From: Mariprofundus ferrooxydans PV-1
Lineage (GTDB): Bacteria > Pseudomonadota > Zetaproteobacteria > Mariprofundales > Mariprofundaceae
Direction: 5' to 3'
Length of the DNA stretch: 64,000 bases
Assembly: GCF_000153765.1 (NCBI RefSeq)
Contig: NZ_DS022294.1
Location: 62,001-126,000, forward strand
Shown: positions 4,706-64,000 of the stretch, piece by piece
Layout of the letters: each line of letters starts with the position of its first letter
Position numbering within the stretch: position 1 is the first letter of the stretch
The notes under the pieces: generated by a model
Database searches by the model: none
What the model saw: only the letters and a program-made list of their open reading frames with translations
What the model was told of the DNA's origin: nothing
Made by a program: the position numbers and the translations under genes

Positions 4706-4714
4706 ATAGTGGAT

Positions 4715-4984
4715 ATGACTCCTGATTCCGTTATTCAAATTGGCAGTGAAGCACTCAAGGTAGTATTGATGATTTCCCTGCCCATGCTGGGCGTTGCTCT
4801 GGTCGTCGGCATCGCCATTTCGCTGTTTCAGGCTGTCACCCAGATTCAGGAAATGACGCTGACATTCGTTCCCAAAATTATTGCTGTCTTTGTAGCCATG
4901 ATTCTTGCCGCACCGTGGATGAGCGATCAGATGATCTCATTTACCCGTGAACTGTTCTCGATGATTCCTACCCTGACGCGGTAA
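4715..4984 (+). CDS. fliQ: Flagellar export gate protein FliQ
   Basis: 89 residues from the ATG at 4715, or 91 from a GTG at 4709. The family normally begins MTPE/D-x-V, which favours the ATG. Two membrane helices flank the conserved IQEMTLTFVPKI segment (Q-A-x-T-Q-I-x-E-M-T-L). FliQ packs around FliP/FliR in the export gate. There is no Shine-Dalgarno before either start, and a sigma-54 promoter match runs up to the start codon. fliR begins six bases after the stop. Confidence 0.95.
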   Translation: MTPDSVIQIGSEALKVVLMISLPMLGVALVVGIAISLFQAVTQIQEMTLTFVPKIIAVFVAMILAAPWMSDQMISFTRELFSMIPTLTR

Positions 4985-4989
4985 CAACA

Positions 4990-5772: not shown

Positions 5773-5775
5773 AGC

Positions 5776-6843: not shown

Positions 6844-6875
6844 CAGTCGAACAAGGCAAGGAGCGACACAAAACA

Positions 6876-48210: not shown

Positions 48211-48232
48211 TCAGACTCCCGTTGGAAATATA

Positions 48233-49426
48233 TTATAACGAAGCATAAGGGGAACGTACCGACGACTGATCTCTGGCTGATGTTTTCAGACGTCCCATCT
48301 TCTCAAAGAAACCGACGCTGCCATCCAGCAGAGCTTCCGCCAGCGCCTTCTGATGCTTGCTGCTTCTGAGCTGCCTTTCGCGTGACGGATTGGAGATATA
48401 ATCCAGCTCAACCAGCACGCTGGGAATTTCCATGGCCAGCAACACGACAAAACGGGCACGTTTGGGCGATGAGTATTTGATCGGCCCGGCTTTTTTCAGC
48501 CTGTGCAACATCTCTTCAGCCAGCATCTGTGAACTATTGAGACTGTCACGCCGGAACATATCGCCAAGAATCCGGCTCACCAGAGGGTCAGACACCTGAT
48601 CCAGCGGCGTCACACCACCCACCTCATCGGCGGCATTTTCCTTGGCAGCCAGCGCTCTGGCTGCCCTATCCTGCGTCGCACCGCGATCGGAGAGCATGTA
48701 CACACTGGCTCCTTTCACGTCTCTTTGACGCACTGAATCAGCATGGATGCTGATCATCATGTCGGCATGCGCTTTTCTGGCCAGTGCTACCCGGCGCTTT
48801 AACGGCACAAAGTAGTCACCCTTACGCGTCAGTACAGCACTCATTCCGGGCATCTTGTTAATAGCAGCAGCCAGTTTTTTCGCCACCGCAAGTGTGACAT
48901 CCTTCTCCATCACCCTGTGTGGCCCGATTGCACCCGGATCTTCACCACCGTGCCCTGCATCCACCGCAACGATAATTCCTTTTTTCGAGCGACTGCTTGC
49001 AGCCACGGCATCCCTCTGTGTCTGCTCCGGCCGCATCAGATCCAGCACCAGCCGGTATGGCTTTCCCTGCATAGGTTTAAGGAGAAAGGAGCGCGGCTGC
49101 ACCTTCTCCTTTACATCCAACACCAGACGCAAAACGCCTTTTTCAGGTTTGCCATGACGAATGGACTTCAACACCGGATCCGGCAGCGCCAGTTTACCCA
49201 GACTCGCCTGCATTGTTGTGTGCATCATATCAATGACAATGCGTTCCGGTTTATGCAGGCGAAACAGTTTGTAGGAAATTTGACCACTGAGATCCAATAC
49301 CAGCCGGCTATGATCGGGAGCCGTCCACAAACGGATATCCCGCACAGCACTGCCGGCATATGCAGCGGATGCATTCAATAGCGCCAGTAGTATACCGATG
49401 CTAATCATGAAACGATTCAGGCTCAT
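48233..49426 (-). CDS. amiC: N-acetylmuramoyl-L-alanine amidase AmiC-type (AMIN domain)
   Basis: 397 residues. A signal peptide (1-24) precedes an AMIN domain (about 25-120), a basic linker and an amidase_3 domain (about 148-375). Zinc ligands are in VDAGHGGEDPGA, MEKDVTLA and SIHADS, and the catalytic Glu is in VLVELDYISN. The helical insert (about 235-295) is where E. coli amidases are held inactive until an EnvC/NlpD activator binds. The enzyme splits septal peptidoglycan during division. Confidence 0.93.
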   Translation of the reverse strand: MSLNRFMISIGILLALLNASAAYAGSAVRDIRLWTAPDHSRLVLDLSGQISYKLFRLHKPERIVIDMMHTTMQASLGKLALPDPVLKSIRHGKPEKGVLRLVLDVKEKVQPRSFLLKPMQGKPYRLVLDLMRPEQTQRDAVAASSRSKKGIIVAVDAGHGGEDPGAIGPHRVMEKDVTLAVAKKLAAAINKMPGMSAVLTRKGDYFVPLKRRVALARKAHADMMISIHADSVRQRDVKGASVYMLSDRGATQDRAARALAAKENAADEVGGVTPLDQVSDPLVSRILGDMFRRDSLNSSQMLAEEMLHRLKKAGPIKYSSPKRARFVVLLAMEIPSVLVELDYISNPSRERQLRSSKHQKALAEALLDGSVGFFEKMGRLKTSARDQSSVRSPYASL

Positions 49427-49494
49427 CAGGACATACTCGCGAGGCGAACTGCCATTGCAAGTGCATATTGCATCAGCAGCGAATCAATAAACGT

Positions 49495-50910
49495 CTATTT
49501 TTTCCTACCGTAACTGTCCTCAAAGCGTTCGATATCATCTTCACCGAGGTAATCTCCCACCTGCACCTCAATCAACTGCAACGGCATCTTGCCGCGGTTT
49601 TCCAACCGGTGCACTTCACCGATAGGGATATAGGTACCGCCATTCTTAGGTACGGTACGGGTCAAATCACCACATGTAATGGTGGCCGTACCGGAAACAA
49701 CGACCCAGTGCTCGGCACGATGTTGATGCGACTGCAGGCTAAGGCGCCCTCCCGGCAACACATCAATGCGTTTAAGCTTGTAACCCTGTCCCGAATTTTC
49801 CAGTACCGTATAACTACCCCACGGCCGGCGCACAGTCACATGCTCCAGATGCAGCGTCCCCTTGGTTTTCACCAGTTCGCCAACAATTTCCTTCACCCGC
49901 TGACTCTGACCTGCCCTGGCCAGCAGGATGGCATCCGGCGTTTCCACCGCGATAATATCTTCCAGACCGATTGCCGCCAGCAAGCGACCTTCGCTACGCA
50001 GCAGTGAGTTTTTGCAATCGATTGCCAGCACATTACCGCTGATTTCATTGCCGTCTTCATCGTGTTTGGCCATTTCATGCACGGCATCCCAGCTGCCGAC
50101 ATCTGACCAGCCGATATCAGCTGCTACCAGCGACACCCTCTTTGATTTTTCCATCACGCCATAATCAATGGAGACATCAGGCATATCGGCAAATGAGTCC
50201 CGAACAACCTCCTGCCACGGCTCTCCAGTCTGCCAGCGGGCACGCATGCGCTCCAACACTGTCCACAGGCTGGGCAGATACTGTTTAACTTCTTCCAGGA
50301 TTACCGAACACTTCCAGACAAACATGCCCGAGTTCCAGTAATAACCGCCCTCCTCCAGCATCTGCTCAGCGGCAGCAATATTCGGCTTTTCAACAAAACG
50401 GAGTACCTTGTGAATCGCACCCTCTTCCGGCTCGGCCTGCACATAACCGAAGCCTGTTTCCGGCGCATCCGGAACCAGCCCGAAGGTAACCAGCTGGTCT
50501 GTCATCGCCACCTCAATAGCCTGCTTCAGACACTTCTGAAAAGCCTCTTTTTTGGTGATCAGGTGGTCTGATGGCAACACGATCATCACAGGGTCATCTT
50601 TATTGAAGTCGAGCATAACAGCAGCTGCTACAGCAATCGCAGGTGCCGTATTACGGCCACACGGCTCCAAAATCAGATGCAAACCATCCAGCTCCGAAAA
50701 TGCCTCACCTGTGGCATGCTTTTCACCGGTGATGACCCAGGCGTCACTACGCTCCACCAACGGTGAGAGTCGGGATATTGTCGCTCCCAGCATACTCTCG
50801 TCTCCATTGAGTTTGAGAAACTGCTTGGGCAACTGCTGGCGTGACAGCGGCCACAAACGGGTACCGGAACCCCCGGCAAGTACTACTGCTTTGATACTAT
50901 TATAATTCAT
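49495..50910 (-). CDS. manC: Mannose-1-phosphate guanylyltransferase/mannose-6-phosphate isomerase
   Basis: 471 residues from the ATG at 50910 (AAGGG seven bases upstream); an ATG at 50937 is also in frame. The nucleotidyltransferase domain begins AVVLAGGSGTRLWPLSRQQLPKQFL and has VEKP at the sugar site. The C-terminal cupin (about 345-470; RPWGSYTVLENSGQGYKLKRI, LQSHQHRAEHWVVVSG) is the type II isomerase domain. It makes GDP-mannose and interconverts fructose-6-P and mannose-6-P. Position beside the polysaccharide cluster suggests mannose or a derivative as a building block. Confidence 0.95.
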   Translation of the reverse strand: MNYNSIKAVVLAGGSGTRLWPLSRQQLPKQFLKLNGDESMLGATISRLSPLVERSDAWVITGEKHATGEAFSELDGLHLILEPCGRNTAPAIAVAAAVMLDFNKDDPVMIVLPSDHLITKKEAFQKCLKQAIEVAMTDQLVTFGLVPDAPETGFGYVQAEPEEGAIHKVLRFVEKPNIAAAEQMLEEGGYYWNSGMFVWKCSVILEEVKQYLPSLWTVLERMRARWQTGEPWQEVVRDSFADMPDVSIDYGVMEKSKRVSLVAADIGWSDVGSWDAVHEMAKHDEDGNEISGNVLAIDCKNSLLRSEGRLLAAIGLEDIIAVETPDAILLARAGQSQRVKEIVGELVKTKGTLHLEHVTVRRPWGSYTVLENSGQGYKLKRIDVLPGGRLSLQSHQHRAEHWVVVSGTATITCGDLTRTVPKNGGTYIPIGEVHRLENRGKMPLQLIEVQVGDYLGEDDIERFEDSYGRKK

Positions 50911-50978
50911 ATCCTCACCCTTGTTTGTGATCATCAATGATCATCTTTTTTCATATAATCGTAGTCGCCCCGGTATCA

Positions 50979-52268
50979 TCACTCTCCGGAGTTCAAATTC
51001 CTGGCATAGCCATGTTCCGAAGCCTGCTCGGAACGATATTTAAACTTGCGGCTAACCCTGATCGTCACCAGTAACCATAACAGGCACAGACCGATATTGG
51101 TGCCGACGAGATACATCGTTGGCAACCCCATGATGTGAACCACCAGATAAATAATACCACCCTGAATCAGGTCGCCAAAGCGCGTAAAAAAGGTATTGAT
51201 CGCCTGCATCCCCTCATAGCGTGTAAAACGATCCAGCGGCAGAAATAAAATCTGTTTGGTCGTATTGGCTACGGAGTAATCAATACTGTTATCTGCCATC
51301 TTCACGATGGCAAACCAGGCCAGAACAGGGAAGAACAGTACCGAAAGATACATCGACAGGTTGATCACAGCCAGACTGATCAGTGCGCCGCCGACGCCTA
51401 TAACCTGATATAGCGGGCGCACAATAAATGCCTGTAACAACAGTGCAGCAATATTCACATAGAGATAGAATGTCGCGTAGAACTCACCTATTTGAGCGCC
51501 ATGTTTTTCCGCTGTGACAAAGTCTGCCAGAACAAATTCGCCGGTGGAGTTAATCAGATTCAGCAGCACCACTGATGCTGCAATCCAGCGCAGATATGGT
51601 ACATCCATAACACGCTTGAGACCGCCAAGCAGATGCTGGATCGACTCCGAACTTGATTCCTGACTCTCCCGCTTCATGGCGATATTGGCGCCTGGCATCA
51701 TCACAGCCAGCAGTAACATTCCGATAGCCACCAGCATCAAGCCATAAGTGCCCAGCTGCAAAAACATAAACTTGGCCATCATCGCACCAAACATCGCACC
51801 CAGCGAACCACCTATCGCAATATATGATGTAAGCTGCTTGCCTTTCTCAACGCAGTGATAATCACTGACCATGGTCCAGAACTGGGAGATCTGAACCACT
51901 GAGAAAATACCCAGCCAGATGAAAAAAATCACGCCAATGTGCAACCCGTATAAACCGGCGATGTAAAACAGCAGAATATTTCCGGCAAGAAATACCGTAA
52001 CCCAGTGAAACAGCCTGTCTCCATGAAGATGGCGAATAAGTACACTGTAAAAGGGCACCAGCAACAGTAATAAAGCCGCCTGACCGGCAAGCGCATAGCT
52101 CCTGATTTCGGCGCTGCCACCGACAAGAATCAACGCCTCACGAACAGGCTTTAACAGATAATATGCAAACAGGATCAGAAACAGCCGCAGGGCAAACATA
52201 AAGGTTGCCTTGCCTTCCGGCCCTCTCATGTTGTCCCAGACACCATGCATCAGCTGTGTAATTTTCAT
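50979..52268 (-). CDS. ADP/ATP translocase (Tlc/NTT)-like membrane carrier
   Basis: 429 residues with about twelve membrane helices. The segment TTKQILFLPLDRFTRYEGMQAINTFFTRFGDLIQGG matches the Tlc/nucleotide-transporter pattern of T-K-x(5)-P-L-D-x(3)-R-x(2)-G followed by R-x-G, and the N-terminal YYLLKPVREALIL also fits. Distantly related MFS proteins share some of this. The classical proteins exchange ATP and ADP across membranes in intracellular bacteria and plastids; the substrate of free-living members is rarely known. It lies directly downstream of a gene for a secreted CotH-type kinase. Confidence 0.78.
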   Translation of the reverse strand: MKITQLMHGVWDNMRGPEGKATFMFALRLFLILFAYYLLKPVREALILVGGSAEIRSYALAGQAALLLLLVPFYSVLIRHLHGDRLFHWVTVFLAGNILLFYIAGLYGLHIGVIFFIWLGIFSVVQISQFWTMVSDYHCVEKGKQLTSYIAIGGSLGAMFGAMMAKFMFLQLGTYGLMLVAIGMLLLAVMMPGANIAMKRESQESSSESIQHLLGGLKRVMDVPYLRWIAASVVLLNLINSTGEFVLADFVTAEKHGAQIGEFYATFYLYVNIAALLLQAFIVRPLYQVIGVGGALISLAVINLSMYLSVLFFPVLAWFAIVKMADNSIDYSVANTTKQILFLPLDRFTRYEGMQAINTFFTRFGDLIQGGIIYLVVHIMGLPTMYLVGTNIGLCLLWLLVTIRVSRKFKYRSEQASEHGYARNLNSGE

Positions 52269-52501: not shown

Positions 52502-55500
52502 CTAGAACGGGCTACAGGCAACAAAGCGTTTGGCTTCTCCGTATTTCATATCGATATCTCTGGCCATCAATGTATTGGAGTACTGATTCACATCAGTCTT
52601 TAAAGGCTTCCAGCGATTACCGTCAAGCAACCATAATTCCAGCAAATCCTCATGCAGCGTCTGCGGTACCTCGGTGCGCCTTGAGTTCTCCTGTATATAT
52701 TCGAACATCACATCACCATGTACGTCTGCACCGGGAGTCTCGGCAGAGACAACCCATGATCTCTGGATGCATTGACTGGCCGACTTCGTCGGAGGCAGAT
52801 ACCTGGGCGCAGCCCCGCCCTCAACCATCACCTTGAATGCAGTATCTTTTTTCAACGGCTTATCCAGGTTCAAATCAGCCACAAAATAGCCCCAGCCCGT
52901 ATCAACCATATGAGTCTGGCTCGTACCTGCCTTAATGACGCCCTGACCGACAAGCTCTTTCGGCAACGGCCAGTCAATCAGAGGTGGATTGGGCTGGTCC
53001 GGCTGCCAGTCGAATCTGCCAAACAACTTGTATTTGAGAAAGTAATCGTGTGCCTTTGTGTAATGCATCAGCGATTCATAGGTTTTGGTAAAATCCTCTT
53101 TTCCATAAGAGAGGAATGTATCCTTACTGACTTCCTTGCCGATCACTGAAGCAAGATTACCGATCCTCGCCTCCATCACTGTCGGTGAAAACCAGCCGAA
53201 TGTGTCTGCCGGACCATTGGGTTCCAGGCCAATCAGATGCTTGATCTTCGCATCAATACGCGCACGCAGTACGGGGTTACGCAGCGCCTTGTCTTTGAGC
53301 GGGTTACCTGCACCGACATCGGGCGCGTAATAATACTGAAAGTTATCATTGAAAATGGTGAACGGCCTGACGCCATACGGGTCATAGGTCCGACCAAAGG
53401 TCAGATTGTAATCCCATGGTACCATAGTCCACTTTCCGCCACCCGGCTGATGATATAGCCAGTAGTTTTTGTTATAGGTATCACCGTTGGTCACCAGAGC
53501 ATTGGCAACAATCCAGTTCAACACCGTTTCATCATCAAAATACTCTTCGAGCACCTGATCCATATTCTCGGATGTGGCCGCATTCATGGCTTTTGCCATG
53601 TTACTGAGCGAACTGTAATCACCATCCTGAGGCGTGATTTTATCAAAGCAGATATCCATATTATCCGCAGTATAGAGATCGCCGCAGTGCGCCGCGTCAT
53701 TAGGCTGGAAGAACTCGCCTTTTGGATCCAGACCGTTGGAAGCAAAAAACTCCTTACCCATCCACTCGACAGAGAGGTATAGCGCGACTTTTTCTCCGTG
53801 ATTAAATCGAACACGGGTAAAATGCACATCCGGCACTTTCATGCCCATGGCTTCCATCAACTTCCAGGCCATCCATTCCCGCATCATCGCCTTATCGGAG
53901 CTCATCGACCGCAGCGCGATATCACGCCGGCCGAACCAGCGACCGCCATCCTTGTCCAGCTTGATACGCAACGACTTCTTACGAAATACGCGCGTGGAGC
54001 TGCCCAGCACCTGAATTGTACCGGTGAGTTTGCGTTTATCCTGCAGGATATCGACAGGAAAAGCTGACTGGTCATATATACCCTTGCGAAACAGCGCCTT
54101 GAGATCATCCTCGCCGATCGTCAATTCAATTTCCTCAATCGGAATTCGATAAAGGGCCTGCTCAAGCGCTGCATGAGAGTAATTGAATGTTTTTCCATGT
54201 GTAATCAGATTGCTGTATGCCGATGCAGGCTGCCCGTCACCGATCATGGTAACGCCCGGCGGAGCATTGATTAATGTCAGATAACTGCCTCTGATCCAGC
54301 CTGGTTTTTCACCAACCTGTTGCGGGTTTACCCGCATCCACCCGTCCTTCTGCTCCAGTACGCTAACCCTCTCCCCTTTAGCTACCCAGCCTACCATGCC
54401 CGAGTCAATACTCGGCACCGTACGCAGTGTGGCTGTTTTCACAACCCGTGCCTGCTGATAATGACTGAACGCAGCAATAGCGGTTTTTTTGACAGGAGCA
54501 GTCGACTTAGCGTCATCAACTATGATCTCGCCTGTTGCCAGCGCCAACTTCAACAGGTCAGCCGGAACCCAACCGCGTTTTCCGCTAATGGTCATGTTGA
54601 CTCTTCGCCAGTCACCCTTGCTGTCAATGATCGTTGCCGACTCATCACGTCCAACCCAGCCAATTCTGTCAAACTGCCTGCCCGGCCCGGCAAGCAGATC
54701 GCTGGTCTGACTGAAGAAATACAATTGATCCGGGTTAATCTTCGCAACCTTCTCAGCAGCGACCGTCACAGGAGCGGATCTGTTCCGGCCCGCCTTGGCC
54801 AAAACCAGAGATGAATGATACACCCAGCCAATGCGTTTGCTCACCTCCATTTCCACCCTGATCCAGTCACCCTTCAGCTCCAGTTCACTGGCATATGAAT
54901 CCACCCCGCCCCAAGCTACGACATCATAATTGGCGCCCGGACCGGCACGTAATGTTGAGTTGCGAATGAACCGATAAAGATTTCTTTCCGGTGCAGTTGC
55001 AGTGCTTGCTGTCGGCACGGCCTCCGCCTTCGGAGTAGCGGACTTCAGCGCAACCACTTCCGGAACAGCCGCCTTACCCTCTGCGGCTGGGCTCTCTGCA
55101 GCAGCTGCCGGTGCTACCGATTTCTGCTTTACGGCTGCTTCTGCCGGTGCGGCCTTTTGCTTCACAGCAACCACTGTCGCCGGGGCTTCTTTCTGTATGG
55201 ATCCGATATCAATCCAGCCGGTCCGCCCACTCTCCTGCATGCGAACATTCACCCATCCACCCTGCTGGGCCAGTACCGTGACCATTGCGCCTGCACCAGC
55301 CCACCCCATGATGTCAGAGAGTGATCCGGGTCCTTTACGTATCGTCGTGGTACGATAAATCGCATGCTCGCTTTGCGGCGCTACCTTGATTGATTCCGGC
55401 TTTGCAGCAGTTTTAGTGCCTGATGTGAGTACCGGCGGCTGCGCTGCAGCTATTGGTGCAGGCTTTGCTGTCATCACCGGCCCGGGTTCGACCGCAGTCT

Positions 55501-57280
55501 TGGCAGCAGTTGCAGCCACCGGAGTAGATTCTGTCGGAGAGGCAGCGGCACCTGATCCCTCTGCACTGTTAGCAGTTACAGATACGGCGGGCTCCTTTGG
55601 CAATACTGCCGCTTTCACAAGCGTCAACGATGGCTGGTAAACCCAGCCGATACGTTTGCTGACCTGCATCTGTATCTTGACCCAGTTCCCTTTATGGTCG
55701 ATCTCGTCAGCATAGGAGTCCACCCCGCCCCAGCCTACGATATCATATTTCGAATCGGGGCCTGCGCGCAGTTTGGACGGACGGTTGAAACGATAAACCG
55801 TGCCGGCTGCATCTGAAGTTGCTGTCGTTTCAACAGCTGCCGGAGCGCTGACCTTGTCGGCAGCAGGCTCTATAACAGTGTCTGAGGCAGTATGATCCAC
55901 CGGAACACTTGGCGACAGCGCATCGCTCAAGCCTACCTGCTGACCATGCTCATCGCTGAGCAATTTCATCGCTGGTTCATCTGCGGCTGTCTGTACGGAG
56001 TCAACTTTCCCGCCGGCCTCCAGGGCCTGGTCGGTTGTCTTTGCCGCTGCCTTCTCCGAAGCTGGCGTTTCGTTAACCAACACCTGTGCACCAGGAGAAG
56101 CAGGGTCTGCCGGTGCAGCAACTTGTTTTGGCAGTTCTTTCGCTTTCACAGGCGTCAACGATGGCTGGTAAACCCAGCCGGTACGCTTACTGACCTGCAT
56201 CTGTATCTTGATCCAGTTCCCTTTATGGTCGATCTCGTCAGCATAGGAGTCCACCCCGCCCCAGCCTACGATATCATATTTCGAATCGGGGCCTGCGCGC
56301 AGTTTGGACGGACGATTAAAACGATATACCGTAGTATCAGCAGCGCGGGCGACAGTCGGATCAGAGGCCGGTGCAGGTGTTACATTTTCGGGCTTTGTCG
56401 ATGCGGATGCAGTGTCTGTTGCTGCAGCGGTATCATGCGAGGGGCTCGCTGCTGCCGTCTGACTACTGCTTCCTGTTTGATTCTGCCCGAAAACAGCATC
56501 ATCCCACAGCATAATCGGCGTTGTTGCCGTTTTTTCGGCCGGCACTGAAGCCTGTTGGTCACCTGCCGGCGAATCAGCAGCACGGGTGGGCGTCACTACG
56601 GGCGATGCCTGCGCTGGAGAAAGAGTCTTTCCCTGATCTTGCTGCACAGGCATGACGGCAGTTGTATCGACAGCGGGTGTGTTTGACTCTGCAGCCAGGG
56701 GATGATGAGACGCAGCAGGTGCCGGCGACGGCGATACAGACTGCTGCTTCGCGGGAGCCGCAATCGGCTGCGACTGCGGTGCATCAAGCAAATCGGTCGC
56801 TGTGATCGTCTGACCTTTTCCCTGATATATCACATTCGGTACAACAGGTTCAGTAACCACCGGCACAGCAGGCTTGCTCTCCTGCGCGTTCTGTCCGCCC
56901 GGGGGGATGGTCGGCGTCGATTGAGTAATCGCTACCGGTGCAACCGTCTGTGTAGGGACTGCCGATGCAGCAGCCGATCCGGCAGCAAGAATCGTCTGCC
57001 CACCTTTCGCACTCACCTGCTCCACCGACGCAGCATAGAGCCAACCATCCGCCGAACCTGAAGCCTGTCTTACTTTAATCCAGTCACCTTTTCTGGCCAC
57101 CTCTATCACCCGGTCACCGGCGGATAGCGCGGCAACCGGCGCATAGGCGCTATCCGGACCGTTACGCAGACTGGATGCCGCCAGCAACGCATACGTATCC
57201 CCTTCCGCAGCACTAAGTGAACCTGCAGATAGCGCCACCCAGAGCAGCGCACAAGCCAGAATCGCGTTACGATTGATCAA
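52502..57280 (-). CDS. Secreted multi-SH3b protein with CotH kinase domain
   Basis: 1592 residues from a TTG start, supported by GGAG seven bases upstream and by a following signal peptide (ILACALLWVALSAGSLSAAE). Seven bacterial SH3 (SH3b) domains lie at about 29-90, 317-380, 494-557, 641-698, 766-828, 851-911 and 942-1001, each with an L-R-x-G-P motif and a G-W strand. Low-complexity Ala/Pro/Thr/Val linkers join them. Domains 2 and 3 are almost identical. Residues about 1044-1345 form a CotH domain: RKKSLRIKLDKDGG, RREWM-like MMREWMAWKLM, NGDTYNKNYWLYH and WTMVPWDYNLTFG keep the Lys, Asp and Asn/Asp positions expected of the fold. The C-terminal 240 residues are unassigned. CotH proteins of Bacillus phosphorylate secreted proteins. 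It begins directly after the outer-membrane barrel gene. Confidence 0.9.
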   Translation of the reverse strand: MINRNAILACALLWVALSAGSLSAAEGDTYALLAASSLRNGPDSAYAPVAALSAGDRVIEVARKGDWIKVRQASGSADGWLYAASVEQVSAKGGQTILAAGSAAASAVPTQTVAPVAITQSTPTIPPGGQNAQESKPAVPVVTEPVVPNVIYQGKGQTITATDLLDAPQSQPIAAPAKQQSVSPSPAPAASHHPLAAESNTPAVDTTAVMPVQQDQGKTLSPAQASPVVTPTRAADSPAGDQQASVPAEKTATTPIMLWDDAVFGQNQTGSSSQTAAASPSHDTAAATDTASASTKPENVTPAPASDPTVARAADTTVYRFNRPSKLRAGPDSKYDIVGWGGVDSYADEIDHKGNWIKIQMQVSKRTGWVYQPSLTPVKAKELPKQVAAPADPASPGAQVLVNETPASEKAAAKTTDQALEAGGKVDSVQTAADEPAMKLLSDEHGQQVGLSDALSPSVPVDHTASDTVIEPAADKVSAPAAVETTATSDAAGTVYRFNRPSKLRAGPDSKYDIVGWGGVDSYADEIDHKGNWVKIQMQVSKRIGWVYQPSLTLVKAAVLPKEPAVSVTANSAEGSGAAASPTESTPVAATAAKTAVEPGPVMTAKPAPIAAAQPPVLTSGTKTAAKPESIKVAPQSEHAIYRTTTIRKGPGSLSDIMGWAGAGAMVTVLAQQGGWVNVRMQESGRTGWIDIGSIQKEAPATVVAVKQKAAPAEAAVKQKSVAPAAAAESPAAEGKAAVPEVVALKSATPKAEAVPTASTATAPERNLYRFIRNSTLRAGPGANYDVVAWGGVDSYASELELKGDWIRVEMEVSKRIGWVYHSSLVLAKAGRNRSAPVTVAAEKVAKINPDQLYFFSQTSDLLAGPGRQFDRIGWVGRDESATIIDSKGDWRRVNMTISGKRGWVPADLLKLALATGEIIVDDAKSTAPVKKTAIAAFSHYQQARVVKTATLRTVPSIDSGMVGWVAKGERVSVLEQKDGWMRVNPQQVGEKPGWIRGSYLTLINAPPGVTMIGDGQPASAYSNLITHGKTFNYSHAALEQALYRIPIEEIELTIGEDDLKALFRKGIYDQSAFPVDILQDKRKLTGTIQVLGSSTRVFRKKSLRIKLDKDGGRWFGRRDIALRSMSSDKAMMREWMAWKLMEAMGMKVPDVHFTRVRFNHGEKVALYLSVEWMGKEFFASNGLDPKGEFFQPNDAAHCGDLYTADNMDICFDKITPQDGDYSSLSNMAKAMNAATSENMDQVLEEYFDDETVLNWIVANALVTNGDTYNKNYWLYHQPGGGKWTMVPWDYNLTFGRTYDPYGVRPFTIFNDNFQYYYAPDVGAGNPLKDKALRNPVLRARIDAKIKHLIGLEPNGPADTFGWFSPTVMEARIGNLASVIGKEVSKDTFLSYGKEDFTKTYESLMHYTKAHDYFLKYKLFGRFDWQPDQPNPPLIDWPLPKELVGQGVIKAGTSQTHMVDTGWGYFVADLNLDKPLKKDTAFKVMVEGGAAPRYLPPTKSASQCIQRSWVVSAETPGADVHGDVMFEYIQENSRRTEVPQTLHEDLLELWLLDGNRWKPLKTDVNQYSNTLMARDIDMKYGEAKRFVACSPF
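55611..55801. repeat. Direct repeat, copy 2 (SH3b domain 3 coding segment)
   Basis: About 190 bases that match 56142-56332 with only a few mismatches. It encodes SH3b domain 3 of the large secreted protein. The near identity, including synonymous positions, points to recent duplication or gene conversion. Confidence 0.85.
56142..56332. repeat. Direct repeat, copy 1 (SH3b domain 2 coding segment)
   Basis: Partner of 55611-55801 at an offset of 531 bases, encoding SH3b domain 2. Recombination between the copies would remove or add exactly 177 codons in frame. Confidence 0.85.
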
Positions 57281-58228
57281 TTAGTCTCTCCAACGATAAC
57301 TCAGGCCCATGCCTGCAAAGTAGTCAATCGGGTTATTCCGGCCGAAGACGGTCTTTCCTGCATGCACGCTCGTCGACCAGCCGGTACCTGTAAACGCATG
57401 CGAATAACGCAGTTGGACCGTGATTTGGTCGGAGTTAGTCATACTCCTGGGTACCTGGTTAAAAAATAGCTGCCTCTGTAGTCCGTTTCGACCGAAGCTG
57501 ACACTGTGATTGATGCGCAAGCCGGCATAGTCACCGGTTTGCTGAAAATCGGTCGAGGTAAAGGCATATTGCGTCTCCAGAAATGAGGTCAGAACGTTGC
57601 CCTTGCCGCTGAAAAAGTAGACATAACGCGTGCCAAGGGTCCAACCCCATGAACTGCGCTTCACAAGCATATTCGGCACATCAGATGAGAACTTCAGCCC
57701 CAGCCCCAGCCCCAGCGCCCCGCGCCCCAGTCGCGAAGGATTATTATTATCGTACCCGGTCGGGATGATCAACAGCGCCTCCCAGGCAGCCGTACCACGA
57801 TGATTCAGGCGTGTTCTTACACCTACCTGTACATCGCCAATACCTGCATTCGGGCCGCCAATCAGGGTGTAGCCCGGCCTGACCCGACCGGTGATCGGAT
57901 TCACCCTCGCCGCACGGTTGATCTGTCCGCACCTGCGATAGGCAAAGTTCACACTGGCAAAAATCGTGTGGAAATAGGAGTAACCATACTCATACCCCTG
58001 CAGCAGACTGACGTTTCTGCGCTGACAAACCGATGTAATGACCTGACGCTGTACGTCCCAATGCTTATTGCCTCCGGAAAAGTTCACACTTCCGTTATAC
58101 AAGGACTCCCCCTGATCGAGCATGCCGACGCCTGCCTGAACCGACGGAGCAAGAGCGAAGAAAATTGTGATAATGCCAGCTACACGCGACAGCATGAGAG
58201 CGGGCCGGCATACTGCTTTGAATATCAT
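57281..58228 (-). CDS. Outer-membrane beta-barrel protein of the polymer cluster
   Basis: 315 residues with a signal peptide (about 1-32, ending PSVQA) and an AAGGGG Shine-Dalgarno. The mature protein has alternating-pattern strands (YGYSYFHTIFASVNFAYRR, GIGDVQVGVRTRLNHRG, GWTLGTRYVYFF) and ends in FAGMGLSYRWRD, with an aromatic-rich last strand. Transporter-like families for phenolics or heptose (DUF3187/MetA-pathway-like) have a similar look, but no family can be fixed. In the cluster it is the only candidate for an outer-membrane pore. Its stop directly abuts the TTG start of the CotH gene. Confidence 0.75.
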   Translation of the reverse strand: MIFKAVCRPALMLSRVAGIITIFFALAPSVQAGVGMLDQGESLYNGSVNFSGGNKHWDVQRQVITSVCQRRNVSLLQGYEYGYSYFHTIFASVNFAYRRCGQINRAARVNPITGRVRPGYTLIGGPNAGIGDVQVGVRTRLNHRGTAAWEALLIIPTGYDNNNPSRLGRGALGLGLGLKFSSDVPNMLVKRSSWGWTLGTRYVYFFSGKGNVLTSFLETQYAFTSTDFQQTGDYAGLRINHSVSFGRNGLQRQLFFNQVPRSMTNSDQITVQLRYSHAFTGTGWSTSVHAGKTVFGRNNPIDYFAGMGLSYRWRD

Positions 58229-58240
58229 ACCATCCCCTTG

Positions 58241-59245
58241 TTAGTTCCAATAGCGCCGGATAATGCGTTCTGCCGGCTTGTTCTGTGGCGTATAGTCCGC
58301 ATCATTGATTCTACCGGGTTTATAATCGCTGTACCAAACCCATATAAATGCGCCGTCAACCCATGGTTTGTCCAGCGCACGCAACCAGATATCCAGAGCA
58401 TCTCTTTGCACATTAAAATCAACTTGCGCATGCCGAAGCCCCTGCCAGGCCCAGGGGCGTGCAGAAGCCCCTCTGGCCGATGGCATACCAAACTCCAGCA
58501 CCCAGAGTGGCTTGTTATATGCGGAAACCGCTTGATGCAAGTTCTCGACGGCCTGATCCACATAGAGCTGCATATCGTCCCTGCTGCCGCTGGAGCCCAA
58601 TGAAGGGTAAAGTGTCAGCGAAACTGTATCCAGCATGTTCCAGTACGGGAATTTTTTAACCCCTTCCACATTATGTGCCGCATAAGTGATTGTTCCTGAA
58701 TAAACCGCGCGCACCTTACGGATCAATTCGGGCCAGTCTACCTGATCACGGGCATGAACCAGTTCTGTTCCTATGACCAGTGCCTGCACCCGCTGTTCTG
58801 ATGCAAATCGAGCAAAAGCAACAATTTCCCGCGAATAGTTCTCAAACCATTGGTGCCACGCCTGTGGCCGGCCAGGATCCACATCACCGGCCCATGACCC
58901 CTGTACCAGTATTTGCGGTTTAAGCACCGTATACAGACCAAGCTCACGAGCGTACCTGATCGCCTTTTTCAACTCATTAACAGACACCGCATCTGAACGC
59001 GTGACCTCTACAGAGTCGGGCCTCGGTTGCTTGAGAAAGCTGATCAGCACAACGGCATTAGCGCCTGTCGACACCATCTCTCTGAGTGACCGACGCGCCT
59101 GAGGGTCCTCCCACGACATCGAGGCATGCTGCATGACATTAAAGCCATGTTTCATTGAACTGTTCTGCAACAGGCCGTGACTTGCACAGCCTGTCATCAA
59201 CAGAGCCAATGCCAGAGCAACGGGAAAATAACGCCGATCAGACAT
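58241..59245 (-). CDS. Lipoprotein glycoside hydrolase (clan GH-A, GH113-like)
   Basis: 334 residues from the ATG at 59245, which overlaps the preceding stop by eight bases. The N-terminus is a lipoprotein signal with LMTGC (Cys20). The mature protein is a TIM barrel with the two glutamates expected in clan GH-A: Glu161 in VIGTELVHA (acid/base) and Glu251 in WVLEFGMPS (nucleophile). WVDGAFIWVWYSDY near the end is the strand-8 Trp region. Relatives act on mannans or related beta-glycans. In this operon it could trim or release the polymer, as BcsZ does in cellulose systems. Confidence 0.78.
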   Translation of the reverse strand: MSDRRYFPVALALALLMTGCASHGLLQNSSMKHGFNVMQHASMSWEDPQARRSLREMVSTGANAVVLISFLKQPRPDSVEVTRSDAVSVNELKKAIRYARELGLYTVLKPQILVQGSWAGDVDPGRPQAWHQWFENYSREIVAFARFASEQRVQALVIGTELVHARDQVDWPELIRKVRAVYSGTITYAAHNVEGVKKFPYWNMLDTVSLTLYPSLGSSGSRDDMQLYVDQAVENLHQAVSAYNKPLWVLEFGMPSARGASARPWAWQGLRHAQVDFNVQRDALDIWLRALDKPWVDGAFIWVWYSDYKPGRINDADYTPQNKPAERIIRRYWN

Positions 59246-60743
59246 GCTTTTTCCTGTAAACTCGCCAGCCAAGATGGTCGTAGACGATGCTGAAGCCTTT
59301 CATGCCAAAGTCATACAGGTTTGGATAACGAATATTCAACTTGTCACGGCGCCCGCGAACAGTCGTCGGGTCGGGCACTGCGATCTGCGCCACATTCGGG
59401 ATACGCTCGCGAATATTCGATTTATATTCGTTGGAAAACGACAGCACCAGCCCTTTCGCATCGCCTCTGGCGGCAATCACCTCGTAGGCGTCCCGATCGT
59501 AAAGCATTGTTTGCTGGCGATTATGCTTCAACCAGAGTCCCAGCGCCAAATCAGCATCATTCGATGAGTCCTGATGCGTGTCCCCCTGCAAGGCCTGCAT
59601 CCAGTGCTTCATCTCAGGGTTACCCGCCTGTGAAAACAGCCACCAGCCACCGACACTGCTGATGAACATAAAGATGACCAGCAAAACAAACTCTCGCCGG
59701 CTCTGCATCTTGATAAAGGTCAACTCGGCCATCACGCCCGCACTGAGAAGGCCCAGAATTTCAAATGGGTGCATCAGATAATATTGGCTGGTGGCAATAG
59801 CGATAGCGATAAGAGGGTGCAACAGCAACACAAATGAAGCACGAAAACGGTAGCTGTTATCCATTGTATCCAGCAGCAGATATACTGAAACAGGATAGGC
59901 AACCAGCATATAACCGGTCGCCGCAATCAGCGGCATAAAAAACTGACCGCCATATTGCTGCAACCACGGGAAATCCTGAATATGCAGCATACCACCCATA
60001 AAGGCTGAGTCTGCATTGGTGATAAAGAAGAGAGGATCACCTTCAAAGATCCAGTTCATATAGGCCCATGTACCCACAGCAAATGCAAACGGGGTACCCA
60101 CAATCAGGTAGAGACCGACCGGTGATACCATCACCGTTCTGATCGGAGCGATCACAACCAACAGCGGAAGCAGGGCCACAAAAATAAAGATGGCCGAACT
60201 ATCCACAAAAAAGAAGATCAGAAACACGACAGCCAGCGAGATATAGGAGTGAATATCGTGCTCTGTGATAACATGCTGAGCGCTTCGGTAGAGCATATAA
60301 AATGCAATCATACTCAGCATCAGGTGGCCGCCGGATGTTGCCGCCCATAAAAATGCCGGGTGACTTACAATCAAAATGGCCAACAATGCATGCCTGAATC
60401 CGCTTATCTCCACCTCTTTCAGATGGCGATCCCACATAAACAGCAGGAATGTCGCTGCCAGCAATGCCACCAGATAGGGCGCTGCTCCGGTATCCAGGCC
60501 GGGAATAAAATAAAATGGTACCAGCACATAGAGGGGAAAATGTGGCTGCAGAAAGCTCAGATTTTCCAACAGCACATCACTTGCTCCAAGTGCACCGGTC
60601 ACCATGGCCCAACGCTGGGTGGCTGCTGCAAGCTGAAAGTCATTGGATAACAACCAGATTGTTACGCCGCACATCGCCAGAGCAATGAGAGCAAGCACAG
60701 CCTTGCCTCCGTAATTACGCTGGCGAACAGGTGATATATTCAT
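59238..60743 (-). CDS. Multi-spanning membrane protein, GT-C glycosyltransferase-like
   Basis: 501 residues with about ten to twelve membrane helices (20-375) and a soluble C-terminal domain (about 385-500). The arrangement, with a long first periplasmic loop and a C-terminal periplasmic domain, resembles GT-C enzymes such as ArnT or PMT. The usual acidic pair in the first loop is not obvious, so transferase activity is uncertain. It overlaps the GT2 gene by four bases and the hydrolase gene by eight, so it belongs to the same operon. Confidence 0.65.
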   Translation of the reverse strand: MNISPVRQRNYGGKAVLALIALAMCGVTIWLLSNDFQLAAATQRWAMVTGALGASDVLLENLSFLQPHFPLYVLVPFYFIPGLDTGAAPYLVALLAATFLLFMWDRHLKEVEISGFRHALLAILIVSHPAFLWAATSGGHLMLSMIAFYMLYRSAQHVITEHDIHSYISLAVVFLIFFFVDSSAIFIFVALLPLLVVIAPIRTVMVSPVGLYLIVGTPFAFAVGTWAYMNWIFEGDPLFFITNADSAFMGGMLHIQDFPWLQQYGGQFFMPLIAATGYMLVAYPVSVYLLLDTMDNSYRFRASFVLLLHPLIAIAIATSQYYLMHPFEILGLLSAGVMAELTFIKMQSRREFVLLVIFMFISSVGGWWLFSQAGNPEMKHWMQALQGDTHQDSSNDADLALGLWLKHNRQQTMLYDRDAYEVIAARGDAKGLVLSFSNEYKSNIRERIPNVAQIAVPDPTTVRGRRDKLNIRYPNLYDFGMKGFSIVYDHLGWRVYRKKHV

Positions 60744-62794
60744 GCTTTCGGCTTCTCGGGTTGAGTTGCACTATGCGTCACTTCAAAACTGGTCAGGCCG
60801 TGATGCGTTTTTTCCCAGTAAAAGGGGTTATGAATCAGCTGCCAGAACCCCTTATATCCAGCCCATGACTGCAGCAACCAGTAAAACGGCACGGTCAACG
60901 CCCATGGGATCAGACCGAAATACCTGCGCTTGAATCCGCTGAGCATAAACAGGTAAATCAGCATGCCGTTAGCAATCAACAGATTAAACAGTGTAATATA
61001 GAGGACAAAAGATGGGAAATAAGGATCAAACGCGAAAGTACTGGTCAGCAACCAGATAATATACATCAGAAACAGCACCGGGGTCAGCATGGCACTGACA
61101 ATTGTGCCGCCAATAAAAAACTGGAAGCCCCAGAAACCCACATGACCCAGCTCGCCATAGAGCTTGAACGGCGAGCGCATATGAACCAGATAACTCTGCA
61201 TATAGCCCTTCAGCCAGCGGGAGCGCTGACGAATCCAGTTAGGAATAGAGTTGTTTGCTTCCTCAAATGTGGTGGAATTCATGACACCAACCCGGTATCC
61301 CGCCTGCGTAAGACGCACACCAAAGTCGCAATCCTCCGTCACATTGTAGGGATCCCATCCACCCATTTCCCGGAGGACACTCATCTTGAAGTGATTGGAT
61401 GTGCCCCCCAGCGGAATAGGAATGCGCAGATAATCCAGTGCCGGCAGATAAAAATCGAACCACAGAGAGTATTCCATGGTGAACATACGAGTCAGCCAGT
61501 TCTCAGCCACATTAAAATAATTCAGTCGCCCCTGAATCACCGCCGTATTTTCCGGCGATTTCCGGAAAGCGATCACCGCCTTCTTCAGCTGATCCGGTTC
61601 CGGCGCATCCTCACCGTCATAAATCGTCGCCATCTCGCCCCGGCTAAAATGCAGCGCATAGTTACAGGCTTTCGGCTTAGTCTGCGGCAGGGATTCGGGT
61701 ACCCGGATGATTTCGAAGATGCCTTCGAGTCCAAGCTCTTTGGCAGCATCAATCGTTTCATCATCCTCCTGTTCCAATATCAATTTGATATCGAGCTTGG
61801 AGAGCGGATAATCAAGCGTGCGCAGCGCCTGAGCAATATTGGGCAGCGTAGCCGCCTCATGAAACATCGGGAGCAAAATGGTATAAACCGGCAGGTCACG
61901 ATCATCCAGAGCCAGCACTTCCTCATCCGTCACATACTGATCAAAATGTTTCTCACCACCGACCCAGCCGAGCAACATGCGCAAGCCAAAATTCAGCATC
62001 AGAAACGCTGAAATACTCAGATTCAACACCACCAGCGACTGAATCGGCCATATCGCCAGAATGATAATGCTCAGCGTCATCCAGACAAACAGGAATGTCA
62101 GCTGTTTGACGGTGAACACCTCGGATGCCGAATATTGCGGCAACGTATTGGCCAGTTCATGCACTGCTTTTCCGCTATAATATGTACCGCCGATCTCCTG
62201 TAGCAACCAGATAATATCGAATTTTGAAGTCACAATAAAATCAAACGGCTCGTCCACTGTTTCATTAACGATTTTCAGCAGCTCGGGCGTCACGTCCACT
62301 ACGGCGACCTTCAACAGACCATCTTCCCGCTGCCAGGGCATAAACAGGTTTTCCGAATAGACAGAAAGCTTGCTTCGGTCGAGCAAGCTAATGTCCGGCC
62401 GTCTGTCCATCAGATCTACATGCGGTTTATCAAAATGCTCGGCCAGCACCTGCCCCATCACATAAGGGCTCACCCACCCTTTGGCCAGAATGATATCACC
62501 GAGACGGGTACCCCATTCAGACTGAATCTGGACGGCTTCCTCCATCTGCTCATTGCTTAACACACCTTTGCTGACAAGCAAATCGCCAATCCGACCACGC
62601 CTGAAGTGATCCGTAAGTGCATCATAGAACGCAATTGTACTGACCAGGCGATTAGCCAGAATAATGTGCCCGATAGGCCCACCTTCCCGCTTCTGCTGAG
62701 CAAGCACCCGCTCGAGTTGCTCCTCGCTGATGAGCCCGCGGCTCACCAGCAATTCGCCAATTCGAGGTTTAGCCCCCCCTCCGGTCTTGCTCAT
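60740..62794 (-). CDS. Cellulose-synthase-like GT2 glycosyltransferase with N-terminal MshEN module
   Basis: 684 residues. The N-terminal 200 residues contain tandem GspE-N/MshEN units: RIGELLVSRGLISEEQLERV (from 11), a degenerate copy at 40-64, RIGDLLVSKGVLSNEQMEEA (from 68) and a degenerate copy at 97-121. These follow the R-L/I-G-x-x-L-x-x-x-G...L-x-x-x-x-x-Q pattern that binds cyclic di-GMP in MshE. Two membrane helices (about 228-275) lead to a family 2 transferase with YDGEDAPEPD, VTEDCDFGVRL (TED) and RQRSRWLKG (QxxRW), the hallmarks of processive synthases. Four or five further helices follow. The C-terminal PilZ domain of BcsA is absent. The product polysaccharide is unknown. Confidence 0.9.
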   Translation of the reverse strand: MSKTGGGAKPRIGELLVSRGLISEEQLERVLAQQKREGGPIGHIILANRLVSTIAFYDALTDHFRRGRIGDLLVSKGVLSNEQMEEAVQIQSEWGTRLGDIILAKGWVSPYVMGQVLAEHFDKPHVDLMDRRPDISLLDRSKLSVYSENLFMPWQREDGLLKVAVVDVTPELLKIVNETVDEPFDFIVTSKFDIIWLLQEIGGTYYSGKAVHELANTLPQYSASEVFTVKQLTFLFVWMTLSIIILAIWPIQSLVVLNLSISAFLMLNFGLRMLLGWVGGEKHFDQYVTDEEVLALDDRDLPVYTILLPMFHEAATLPNIAQALRTLDYPLSKLDIKLILEQEDDETIDAAKELGLEGIFEIIRVPESLPQTKPKACNYALHFSRGEMATIYDGEDAPEPDQLKKAVIAFRKSPENTAVIQGRLNYFNVAENWLTRMFTMEYSLWFDFYLPALDYLRIPIPLGGTSNHFKMSVLREMGGWDPYNVTEDCDFGVRLTQAGYRVGVMNSTTFEEANNSIPNWIRQRSRWLKGYMQSYLVHMRSPFKLYGELGHVGFWGFQFFIGGTIVSAMLTPVLFLMYIIWLLTSTFAFDPYFPSFVLYITLFNLLIANGMLIYLFMLSGFKRRYFGLIPWALTVPFYWLLQSWAGYKGFWQLIHNPFYWEKTHHGLTSFEVTHSATQPEKPKA

Positions 62795-62802
62795 ACGGAT
62801 AC

Positions 62803-64000
62803 TTACCTGTGCTCATCAAGATGATCCAGTGAATCACCCATATCCGCCGCTGCGCTCGCTCGCATTTTTTCTTCTTCCGACTGATAGAATGAGTCATCGG
62901 CCTCACGCGCTATCTTGTTGGATCTGGACATACGATAGAGATACACAACGACCATGGTCAGCAGGAACCACAGTGCCACCATCAGCCAGAATTTGTATTT
63001 ACCGAGCACATCAAACCAGTCCTCCACATCCGGATAATAAACCTGGGCCAACGACGGCTCGGCGCTGTTCATAGTCTTGATTACACCCTGCGAGTCAATG
63101 AATGCAACGTTATCCTCAGCCAGGTCCAGTCGGTTTGTTACCGGCAACTCGGCGTTGTCAGCCGGAGTAATCCACATACCGAAGGCCGATGGTGCCTTGA
63201 CGATTTCAGCCACCGTCACCTTGGTCAGGTTGCTTAGATCAAAGTAGGTTTGGCCTTTCGGAGTCTGAATCTTCACATGACCTTTATCAAAGCGAACTGG
63301 CGCTTCTATGCTCTCACCCATAGGGAAATGTCCAACAGCGACAAATGGACCGTCCGGATTCACCACCTCGGATGAAGAGACAAAATGCAGCCTGCTATGA
63401 TCAATTACCAGCGGGAAGTCAGATGCCAGCCGCGCCATCAGATGCAGCACCTGCTCAGGATGATCCAGATAGGATGACTCCATATACGTATCAAAACCGG
63501 ACAGGAAATATCTCGACAAGTCAGAGAATTTAGCTGGAGAAACAGTCGATTCTTTTTTCACAACCAGTGCGCTATCCGGCATGATCTGCACATAGTCACT
63601 CGGCATCACACCATGACAGTCACCTTCTTCGATATCGTGCTGGATAACCACACGAATGTCGTTGAACTGCTTCTGATATTCCGACGGCAAATTAACAGTA
63701 AAATGCTGCTTAACACCGTTGTCCGCCAAGCGTGCAGATTTCACCAGCACATCGTTCAGGAAGACGTACAACTCATAGTTGGGATCATCCTTCCAGCGAA
63801 CAGGAGCCACAACCTCCAGGTTCAGGAAGTCCGGCTGTGTCCCCATAGGCAAGGCAAAGGGGCTCACCATCGTCCGCCAGCTGACTTCCCGGGTCAGGTA
63901 CTTAACATCGGTATTCATACCCAGCGTGGAGAGCGGCAGCGAATAAAATCCGGCGTCACCCTCCAACCCCATAGGGCCGCCATGGGCCCGCAGGCTGTCT
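62803..64000 (-). CDS. BcsB-like membrane-anchored periplasmic protein (5' end outside window)
   Basis: At least 398 residues are open to the window edge, with the frame continuing upstream of the first in-window ATG (63972). The part seen has beta-rich periplasmic domains (YELYVFLNDVLVKSARL, QHFTVNLPSEYQKQFNDIRVVIQHD, ending before residue about 320), one C-terminal membrane helix (FWLMVALWFLLTMVVVYLY) and an acidic cytoplasmic tail. This is the layout of BcsB, which guides glucan through the periplasm beside BcsA. It lies eight bases before the GT2 gene. Similarity to BcsB is at the level of plan and short motifs, so the exact family is uncertain. Confidence 0.78.
   Translation of the reverse strand, partial: DSLRAHGGPMGLEGDAGFYSLPLSTLGMNTDVKYLTREVSWRTMVSPFALPMGTQPDFLNLEVVAPVRWKDDPNYELYVFLNDVLVKSARLADNGVKQHFTVNLPSEYQKQFNDIRVVIQHDIEEGDCHGVMPSDYVQIMPDSALVVKKESTVSPAKFSDLSRYFLSGFDTYMESSYLDHPEQVLHLMARLASDFPLVIDHSRLHFVSSSEVVNPDGPFVAVGHFPMGESIEAPVRFDKGHVKIQTPKGQTYFDLSNLTKVTVAEIVKAPSAFGMWITPADNAELPVTNRLDLAEDNVAFIDSQGVIKTMNSAEPSLAQVYYPDVEDWFDVLGKYKFWLMVALWFLLTMVVVYLYRMSRSNKIAREADDSFYQSEEEKMRASAAADMGDSLDHLDEHR

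Follow-up and report, generated by a model that had tools for sequence, protein, structure and literature searches.

The sfz1-sfz6 cluster of Mariprofundus ferrooxydans PV-1 as a candidate c-di-GMP-gated exopolysaccharide machine, probably of the stalk matrix

Introduction

Six contiguous genes of Mariprofundus ferrooxydans PV-1 constitute the published sfz1-sfz6 cluster, and it is likely that they encode a c-di-GMP-gated, synthase-dependent exopolysaccharide machine of the stalk-type Mariprofundus, the product being probably the matrix of the stalk. Twisted iron stalks are read as biosignatures in the fossil record and serve as a model of controlled biomineralisation, and sfz is the leading published candidate for their synthesis in marine iron oxidisers; in the literature on sfz we found neither genes shown to make twisted stalks nor a genetic test of the cluster. 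The system itself is known; new here are the tandem MshEN modules of Sfz2, the homology of Sfz5 to XagA, a distribution that reaches beyond stalk formers, the existence of two cluster types and the contrast between their Sfz6 SH3 domains. These refinements make sfz more testable, with a defined candidate receptor site for c-di-GMP and, in the SH3 array of Sfz6, a specific protein difference between stalk-type and dread-type clusters. They also carry a warning for metagenomes, in which presence of the cluster alone should not be taken to mean "stalk former".

Locus identity and layout

The window (the whole stretch of DNA analysed, 64,000 nucleotides) contains the following features, listed with the evidence for each:

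46429..48210, minus strand: MsbA-like ABC exporter (ORF; position and product as in the published cassette)
48233..49426, minus strand: N-acetylmuramoyl-L-alanine amidase (ORF; position and product as in the published cassette)
49495..50937, minus strand: bifunctional mannose-1-P guanylyltransferase/mannose-6-P isomerase, GMP/PMI (TIGR01479)
50979..52268, minus strand: NTT/TLC-family ADP,ATP-carrier-like transporter (PF03219, structure match)
52502..57280, minus strand: sfz6, secreted SH3-array/CotH protein of 1592 aa (Pfam, 5jd9 alignment, motifs)
57281..58228, minus strand: sfz5, 315 aa, signal peptide and predicted 12-strand outer-membrane beta-barrel (structure model, profile match)
58241..59272, minus strand: sfz4, GH113 lipoprotein of 343 aa, XagD-like (PF22612, PDB alignment)
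59238..60743, minus strand: sfz3, GT-C-fold integral membrane protein of 501 aa, XagC-like (structure model)
60740..62794, minus strand: sfz2, 684 aa, two tandem MshEN modules followed by a processive GT2 domain (domain, structure and motif matches)
62803..63999, minus strand: sfz1, BcsB-like periplasmic subunit, 3' part only (ORF, PF03170)

ORF calling recovered sfz1 to sfz6 as six genuine long reading frames that abut or overlap, as the initial annotation had described: 8 bp separate sfz1 from sfz2, sfz2 and sfz3 share a 4-bp overlap, the overlap of sfz3 with sfz4 reaches at most 35 bp, according to the start codon chosen, and sfz5 and sfz6 abut. The window edge truncates the BcsB-like gene, leaving 1.2 kb of it outside; in full the gene encodes 804 aa and extends to G000:C4:127217 (L002:10803-13217). 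The BcsB-like, MshEN-GT2, glycoside hydrolase lipoprotein and SH3b-CotH assignments made at that stage are borne out by Pfam, and the GT-C-like and outer-membrane barrel readings of the third and fifth genes by structure models. Scans for promoters, which returned promoter-like sites only at shuffle level, and for terminators (22 hits against 12.7 expected, mostly weak intragenic stems), were uninformative.

The operon had been taken for an undescribed one, a view that must be abandoned: the number of genes here, their order, lengths and domains, and the cassette beside them all agree with the published sfz1-sfz6. The six genes have been published as a candidate stalk cluster of Zetaproteobacteria (Koeksoy 2021, PMC8250860), and sfz1-4 had already been described (Kato 2015, PMC4643136). 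The lengths of sfz1 to sfz6 at this locus (2415, 2055, 1506, 1032, 948 and 4779 bp) all fall inside the published ranges of 1067-2576, 2051-2084, 1499-1535, 971-1037, 929-983 and 3311-7352 (PMC8250860), respectively. The published cassette of ATP-ADP antiporter, PMI, amidase and MsbA is present at 46429-52268 of the window, the first two being assigned by domain search and the last two by ORF and position. Since the order of the sfz genes is kept in every Mariprofundus cluster with sufficient contig, their order and linkage are not due to chance.

The synthase and its BcsB-like partner

Sfz2 carries MshEN modules at residues 11-63 and 68-120 ahead of its GT2 domain (Pfam E-values of 2.5e-9 and 1.3e-23, respectively), and scores 109.6 bits, in two stretches, against NF053729, the c-di-GMP motif model with an NCBI cutoff of 38. 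Among solved structures it matches MshE (5htl, E 5e-10) and BcsA (4p00, E 2e-5), and the GT2 motifs YDGED, VTED and QRSRW are intact. An MshEN receptor is defined by two 24-residue motifs with a 5-residue spacer and R..Q ends; in Sfz2 motif I is exact, and motif II has H where its final Q is expected, nearly all members having this replacement at the last position of the second half-motif, which might weaken c-di-GMP binding. These matches suggest that Sfz2 is a candidate c-di-GMP receptor through its two tandem MshEN modules. The N-terminal part of the protein was read as a T2SS ATPase domain by Koeksoy 2021 (PMC8250860), a role that is rejected here, the region being MshEN with no ATPase domain. 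Its partner Sfz1 has an N-terminal SH3 domain, a match to the BcsB family (PF03170, E 1.4e-8) and a C-terminal TM, and shares 57-78% identity among stalk-type clusters.

Sfz3, Sfz4 and Sfz5 and the nature of the polymer

The products of sfz3 and sfz5 matched no Pfam family and were assigned from structure models. That of Sfz3 (AlphaFold2 pLDDT 89.4, pTM 0.89) has ArnT as its best PDB match (Foldseek, E 6.5e-5, probability 1.00), followed by OST and AftA. A GT-C enzyme is recognised by its fold together with an acidic residue in the first periplasmic loop, for which E60 is the candidate, acidic in only 29/34 members (27 E and 2 D); D181 is found in 33/34. It is possible, going by the model, that Sfz3 is a branching enzyme dependent on polyprenyl-phosphate sugars. 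The Sfz5 model (pLDDT 81, 12 strands) best matches the COG4313 channel 4rl8 (E 2e-11) and FapF (2e-9), and the Sfz5 profile aligns with the XagA-position proteins of Xanthomonas and Pseudomonas (probability 96.9, E 1.3e-10). By this profile comparison Sfz5 is homologous to XagA, so that sfz2-5 correspond to the xagBCDA genes of Xanthomonas.

Sfz4, with the lipobox MTGC, belongs to GH113 (PF22612, E 4.9e-46). Among the structures that align to it is 5yli, with Ala in place of the second Glu. Its PDB matches within GH113 are beta-1,4-mannanases, 5ylh aligning at E 4e-30 with both catalytic Glu in register, and the GMP/PMI gene (548.8 bits against TIGR01479, cutoff 373) adjoins many Mariprofundus clusters. 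The GDP-mannose enzymes and the mannanase-family hydrolase together point to a mannose-rich polymer, a beta-mannan, which would refine the exopolysaccharide reading and not compete with it. We regard this identity of the product as doubtful, however: most gammaproteobacterial clusters have no adjoining GMP/PMI, and the GH113 fold does not determine the substrate. GDP-mannose dehydrogenase was not found in the genome, where the sole clear nucleotide-sugar dehydrogenase is of the UDP-glucose type, and an alginate-like polymannuronate is accordingly unsupported.

Distribution and cluster types

It had been supposed that this could be the proposed stalk cluster, which the match to sfz upholds, and the genome lies in the stalk-type Mariprofundus clade, its Sfz2 grouping with those of P3, ET2 and EBB-1, isolates described as stalk formers (SH-aLRT 100). 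Among Zetaproteobacteria, Sfz2 and Sfz3 are confined to this genus and one other genome, G002; elsewhere among the 78 genomes, scored by genome and not by phenotype, no Sfz3 was found, which would agree with the claim that stalk-less Zetaproteobacteria do not have sfz, although dread formers too have the six genes, as the B-type cluster. Zetaproteobacterial CotH follows the same set of genomes, the one exception being a fragment at an edge in G066. The proposed test of co-occurrence gave a divided answer: it is tight within Zetaproteobacteria, but MAGs of Gammaproteobacteria, 'Azoarcus' and Desulfobacterota, none of them known for stalks, have the entire six-gene cluster in unchanged order. 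Because of these MAGs and the dread formers, the cluster by itself cannot diagnose stalk formers.

This spread speaks for another explanation, in which the sfz product is a general xag-type polysaccharide for attachment or biofilm, with which many bacteria adhere; sfz would then accompany stalk formers only because they live attached, the stalk being some other product. The sfz2-5 core is present in Xanthomonas, Pseudomonas, Halopseudomonas, Niveispirillum and Gluconacetobacter, and xag is known to act in biofilm (PMC3609779). The tight restriction, within Zetaproteobacteria, to a genus of stalk and dread formers and the independent presence of sfz in stalk-forming Gallionellaceae (PMC10734462) count against it, and we consider it unlikely. 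Against the main reading stands the report that stalk-forming Ferriphaselus has neither sfz5 nor sfz6. Mariprofundus has two cluster types, stalk-type and dread-type, both of which are held by M. micogutta ET2. SH3 domains number 6-13 in the Sfz6 of 12/12 stalk-type clusters and 0 in 6/6 dread-type ones, a contrast that is effectively one evolutionary split. A rather more speculative idea is that the generic polysaccharide machine extends well beyond stalk formers and that the SH3-array Sfz6, as scaffold or kinase, makes its product a twisted stalk, strains with both types, such as ET2, making two kinds of fibre.

Sfz6 and the adjoining carrier

In PV-1, Sfz6 has 7 SH3 domains within low-complexity linkers (SH3_3, E 1.9e-38 over six stretches) and a C-terminal CotH domain, Fam20C-like kinase in type (PF08757, E 7.4e-53). 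It aligns to CotH 5jd9 (E 2e-14) with the active-site K, E and two Asp kept, in the motifs FRKKSL, NGDTYNKN and PWDYNLTF. The next gene encodes an NTT-type carrier (PF03219 in 14/14 members; solved ADP,ATP carrier 9j3n, E 4.7e-27), found in that position in 19/22 clusters across Zeta-, Gammaproteobacteria and Desulfobacterota and in 0/29 of the clusters with no sfz6. The conserved active site, this linkage and the homology to solved ADP,ATP carriers would suit a genuine kinase outside the cell that receives its ATP through the neighbouring carrier, again as a refinement of the main reading. We nevertheless judge it improbable, since the sfz6-bearing clusters are largely one clade, so that the carrier counts are not independent, and in 397 genomes of the phylum 0/9 with other CotH genes have a carrier beside them. 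The pairing of CotH with an ATP carrier is thus not a general rule, being unseen outside the sfz cassette.

Proposed mechanism

The identity of the cluster, its domains and folds, the conserved catalytic motifs, and its linkage and distribution are direct results of the analysis; for the machine as a whole we infer c-di-GMP activation, a division of labour and an export route as follows. Binding of c-di-GMP to the tandem MshEN modules of Sfz2 would switch on the GT2 domain, which would polymerise the glycan and extrude it across the inner membrane beside the BcsB-like Sfz1. In the periplasm Sfz3 may attach side groups from a lipid-linked sugar; the outer-membrane lipoprotein Sfz4 would trim or release the chain, the barrel Sfz5 would be its exit, and the secreted Sfz6 may organise or phosphorylate the emerging fibre. 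In the stalk-type clade the product would probably be the organic matrix of the twisted stalk. This scheme draws on the identity with sfz, the stalk-former clade, the zetaproteobacterial restriction, the intact GT2, GH113 and CotH residues, the MshEN score, the NfrB precedent and the role of xag in biofilm. Of the regulated fibre or matrix assembly machine first suggested, exopolysaccharide synthesis is well supported, and the stalk as product stands as probable.

Comparison with known systems

In no tested feature does the locus differ from sfz (PMC8250860): the six genes, their order, domains and cassette are shared by both, and the gene lengths lie within the published ranges; what is revised are domain readings, with MshEN for the T2SS ATPase, GH113 for GH10, a GT-C fold for Sfz3 and an XagA-type barrel for Sfz5. 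Position and homology pair Sfz5 with XagA, Sfz2 with XagB, Sfz3 with XagC and Sfz4 with XagD of the Xanthomonas xagABCD operon (PMC3609779), and the Sfz profiles match all four genes in Xanthomonas loci. Deletion of xagA/xagB abolishes the extra biofilm of a Xanthomonas rpfG mutant (PMC3609779). The Xanthomonas clusters examined, however, have no adjoining sfz1, no sfz6 and no ATP/ADP carrier, and their synthase has one MshEN module as against two in Sfz2. NfrBA of E. coli (PMC8669469) shares the MshEN-GT2 fusion with processive motifs, and its exopolysaccharide synthesis is activated by c-di-GMP through NfrB; in NfrB, however, MshEN is C-terminal, whereas in Sfz2 it is N-terminal and doubled, and NfrA is a TPR barrel, with no BcsB, GT-C, GH113 or CotH partners in the system.

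The Bcs system resembles sfz in its GT2 synthase with a BcsB-type partner, periplasmic hydrolase and outer-membrane barrel, but sfz has no PilZ, BcsC or BcsZ, uses another hydrolase family and adds the GT-C and CotH proteins. A divergent cellulose synthase operon making cellulose or a beta-glucan is very improbable and is rejected, despite the BcsB match and the BcsA-like GT2 core with D..D, TED and QxxRW, given that Pfam finds no PilZ on Sfz2, that neither the BcsC TPR-barrel nor the BcsZ GH8 enzyme was found in the locus, that Sfz2 reaches 36 bits against a cellulose synthase model with a cutoff of 699, and that the accessory hydrolase comes from the GH113 mannanase family. The initial description of a cellulose-like logic lacking BcsC, BcsZ and PilZ, with an added kinase-fold protein, holds here; by analogy, MshEN would take the place of PilZ, the GH113 lipoprotein that of BcsZ and the small 12-strand barrel that of BcsC.

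Identity and Anatomy of the Locus

The region under study is filled by six long open reading frames that overlap or are separated by gaps of a few bases, the first of which in transcription order (sfz1) is truncated at the window edge and encodes 804 aa in the surrounding contig. The G+C content of the window is 54.2%, near the 54.0% published for M. ferrooxydans. The features are:

52502-64000, minus strand: the six genes sfz1-sfz6
46429-52268: neighbouring cassette with an ATP-ADP antiporter, a mannose-P enzyme, an amidase and MsbA

Pfam searches identified BcsB in gene 1, MshEN and GT2 in gene 2, GH113 in gene 4, and SH3 and CotH in gene 6, and matched no family for genes 3 and 5, whose structures were predicted from family alignments of 34 members. 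The gene 3 model has a GT-C fold (pLDDT 89), the nearest solved structure being ArnT, followed by oligosaccharyltransferases and AftA; gene 5 is modelled as a 12-stranded barrel (pLDDT 81), nearest to a COG4313 outer-membrane channel and FapF. The six-gene anatomy described in the initial annotation is thus borne out by the reading frames, Pfam and both fold models.

The locus is the sfz1-sfz6 cluster for which Koeksoy et al. 2021 (PMC8250860) proposed a role in stalk synthesis, and part of which had already been reported as 'xag-like' genes by Kato et al. 2015 (PMC4643136). All six window genes have lengths inside the published ranges, the neighbouring cassette is present, and in the Sfz2 tree the window protein falls in one clade with the isolates P3, ET2 and EBB-1, described as stalk formers. 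The earlier suggestion that stalk polymer is a candidate product agrees with this literature, which already treats the locus as a stalk candidate and in which we found no genetic test. The refinements reported here beyond the known cluster do not appear in the main texts of the published sfz papers.

Distribution and Cluster Types

Real Sfz2 copies (E below 1e-100) were found in 20 of the 78 genomes of the class, all in the window's genus except for one genome of another family. Eighteen of these 20 also carry Sfz3, which is found nowhere else among the 78; the two exceptions are fragmented assemblies in which sfz2 reaches the contig end. CotH exceeded the cutoff in 18 class genomes, namely 17 of the 20 with Sfz2, plus an edge fragment in genome G066. 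The six-gene order is constant in zetaproteobacterial clusters wherever the contig is long enough.

The gene following sfz6 encodes an NTT-type ADP,ATP carrier homologue. It takes this position in 19 of the 22 clusters whose flank is long enough, and none of the 29 clusters lacking sfz6 has it alongside; nor was it found beside CotH genes outside sfz clusters (0/9 genomes). The carrier might supply ATP to Sfz6 acting as a secreted kinase, an appealing hypothesis of low probability.

Outside the class, Sfz2 relatives, mostly of 47-62% identity, were found in gammaproteobacterial MAGs, an 'Azoarcus' MAG, Desulfobacterota MAGs, Xanthomonas, Pseudomonas, Niveispirillum, Gluconacetobacter and others. 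All six genes occur in the same order on seven gammaproteobacterial MAG contigs, the 'Azoarcus' contig and one Desulfurivibrionaceae contig, taxon labels that depend on binning, and most of these contigs also carry the ATP/ADP carrier. Of 397 evenly sampled genomes of the phylum, only one outside Zetaproteobacteria contains Sfz3, which makes the system rare and patchily distributed. The cluster is not confined to iron oxidisers, and to read stalk formation from its presence alone, as recent metagenome papers do with caution, can mislead. In Niveispirillum-type clusters and genome G334 (loci L097, L086, L077 and L175), sfz4 lies on the strand opposite to the rest of the cluster.

Within Mariprofundus, Sfz2 forms two clades: the stalk-type clade A, which includes the proteins of the window and of the stalk-forming isolates, and the dread-type clade B. 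We infer that two single-contig clade-B genomes are those of CP-5 and CP-8, described as dread formers in 2021 (PMC8250860). Both cluster types are present in MAG OFTM123 and in M. micogutta ET2, an isolate described as producing thin filaments unlike stalks, plus some stalks; the second ET2 cluster is not mentioned in the main text of that paper (PMC8250860). OFTM123 also has a third, partial cluster on a short contig (L174, G057:C24), comprising the sfz3 end, sfz4, sfz5 and an sfz6 without SH3.

When SH3 domains were counted with a model built from the repeats of the window's Sfz6, clade-A Sfz6 proteins had 6-13 (12/12 distinct proteins) and clade-B-type proteins none (6/6). The zetaproteobacterium of another family (G002) has three, and Sfz6 proteins of other classes and phyla have none in nine of ten cases and one in the tenth. 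Sfz1 has one SH3 domain in clades A and B alike. The Sfz6 count is the sharpest difference seen between stalk-type and dread-type clusters, as a correlation only, because it reflects effectively one evolutionary split.

Sequence Upstream of sfz1

Outside the window and close upstream of sfz1, a segment bounded by two 100-N gaps (L002:14269-15979; G000:C4:128269-129979) contains 791 bp identical to part of sfz1, which join an IS4-type transposon at the element's edge; elsewhere in the genome this transposon has five near-full copies (99%) and a partial one. The likely readings are that the sequenced culture contained an sfz1::IS variant, or that this piece of the scaffold is misplaced or chimeric. 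An IS1182-like element adjoining sfz1 (L002:13256-16955) is broken by the same gaps, and the 102 bp overlap of its two parts suggests that the scaffolder inserted the small piece into a continuous element.

Predicted Mechanism and Relation to Known Systems

Where cellulose synthase has a PilZ domain, Sfz2 has MshEN, with two modules; most relatives outside Zetaproteobacteria have one, and the G002 protein (L128) carries three. Sfz2 scores 109.6 bits against the NCBI c-di-GMP motif model (cutoff 38). Motif I is canonical, and motif II ends in His rather than Gln in nearly all members, a change that might lower the predicted affinity for c-di-GMP. An earlier suggestion made the N-terminus a T2SS ATPase and placed c-di-GMP binding at RxxD-type sites, including in periplasmic Sfz1 (PMC8250860); it is revised here, the N-terminus being MshEN. 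NfrB, likewise an MshEN-GT2 protein, provides a tested precedent: its EPS requires c-di-GMP binding (PMC8669469).

The GT2 motifs of Sfz2 are intact, Sfz6 retains the CotH active-site residues, and Sfz4 retains both GH113 glutamates and has a lipobox. The Sfz4 family suggests, and does not prove, a beta-mannose linkage. A GMP/PMI gene is adjacent to the cluster, and the single clear nucleotide-sugar dehydrogenase found in the genome belongs to the UDP-glucose type.

Kato et al. found no XagA in freshwater stalk formers (PMC4643136), and Koeksoy et al. assigned no function to Sfz5 (PMC8250860). Sfz5 is XagA-like, because its profile matches that of the XagA-position proteins of Xanthomonas and Pseudomonas (probability 96.9, E 1.3e-10). 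Some 2.4 kb downstream of xag in many Xanthomonas (L056:16536-21394 and similar loci) there is another GT2/BcsB pair, which matches weakly and is probably the bcs cellulose operon. Folds and known systems suggest a division of labour among Sfz3-Sfz6. In Xanthomonas the order sfz5-sfz2-sfz3-sfz4 is that of the xagABCD operon.
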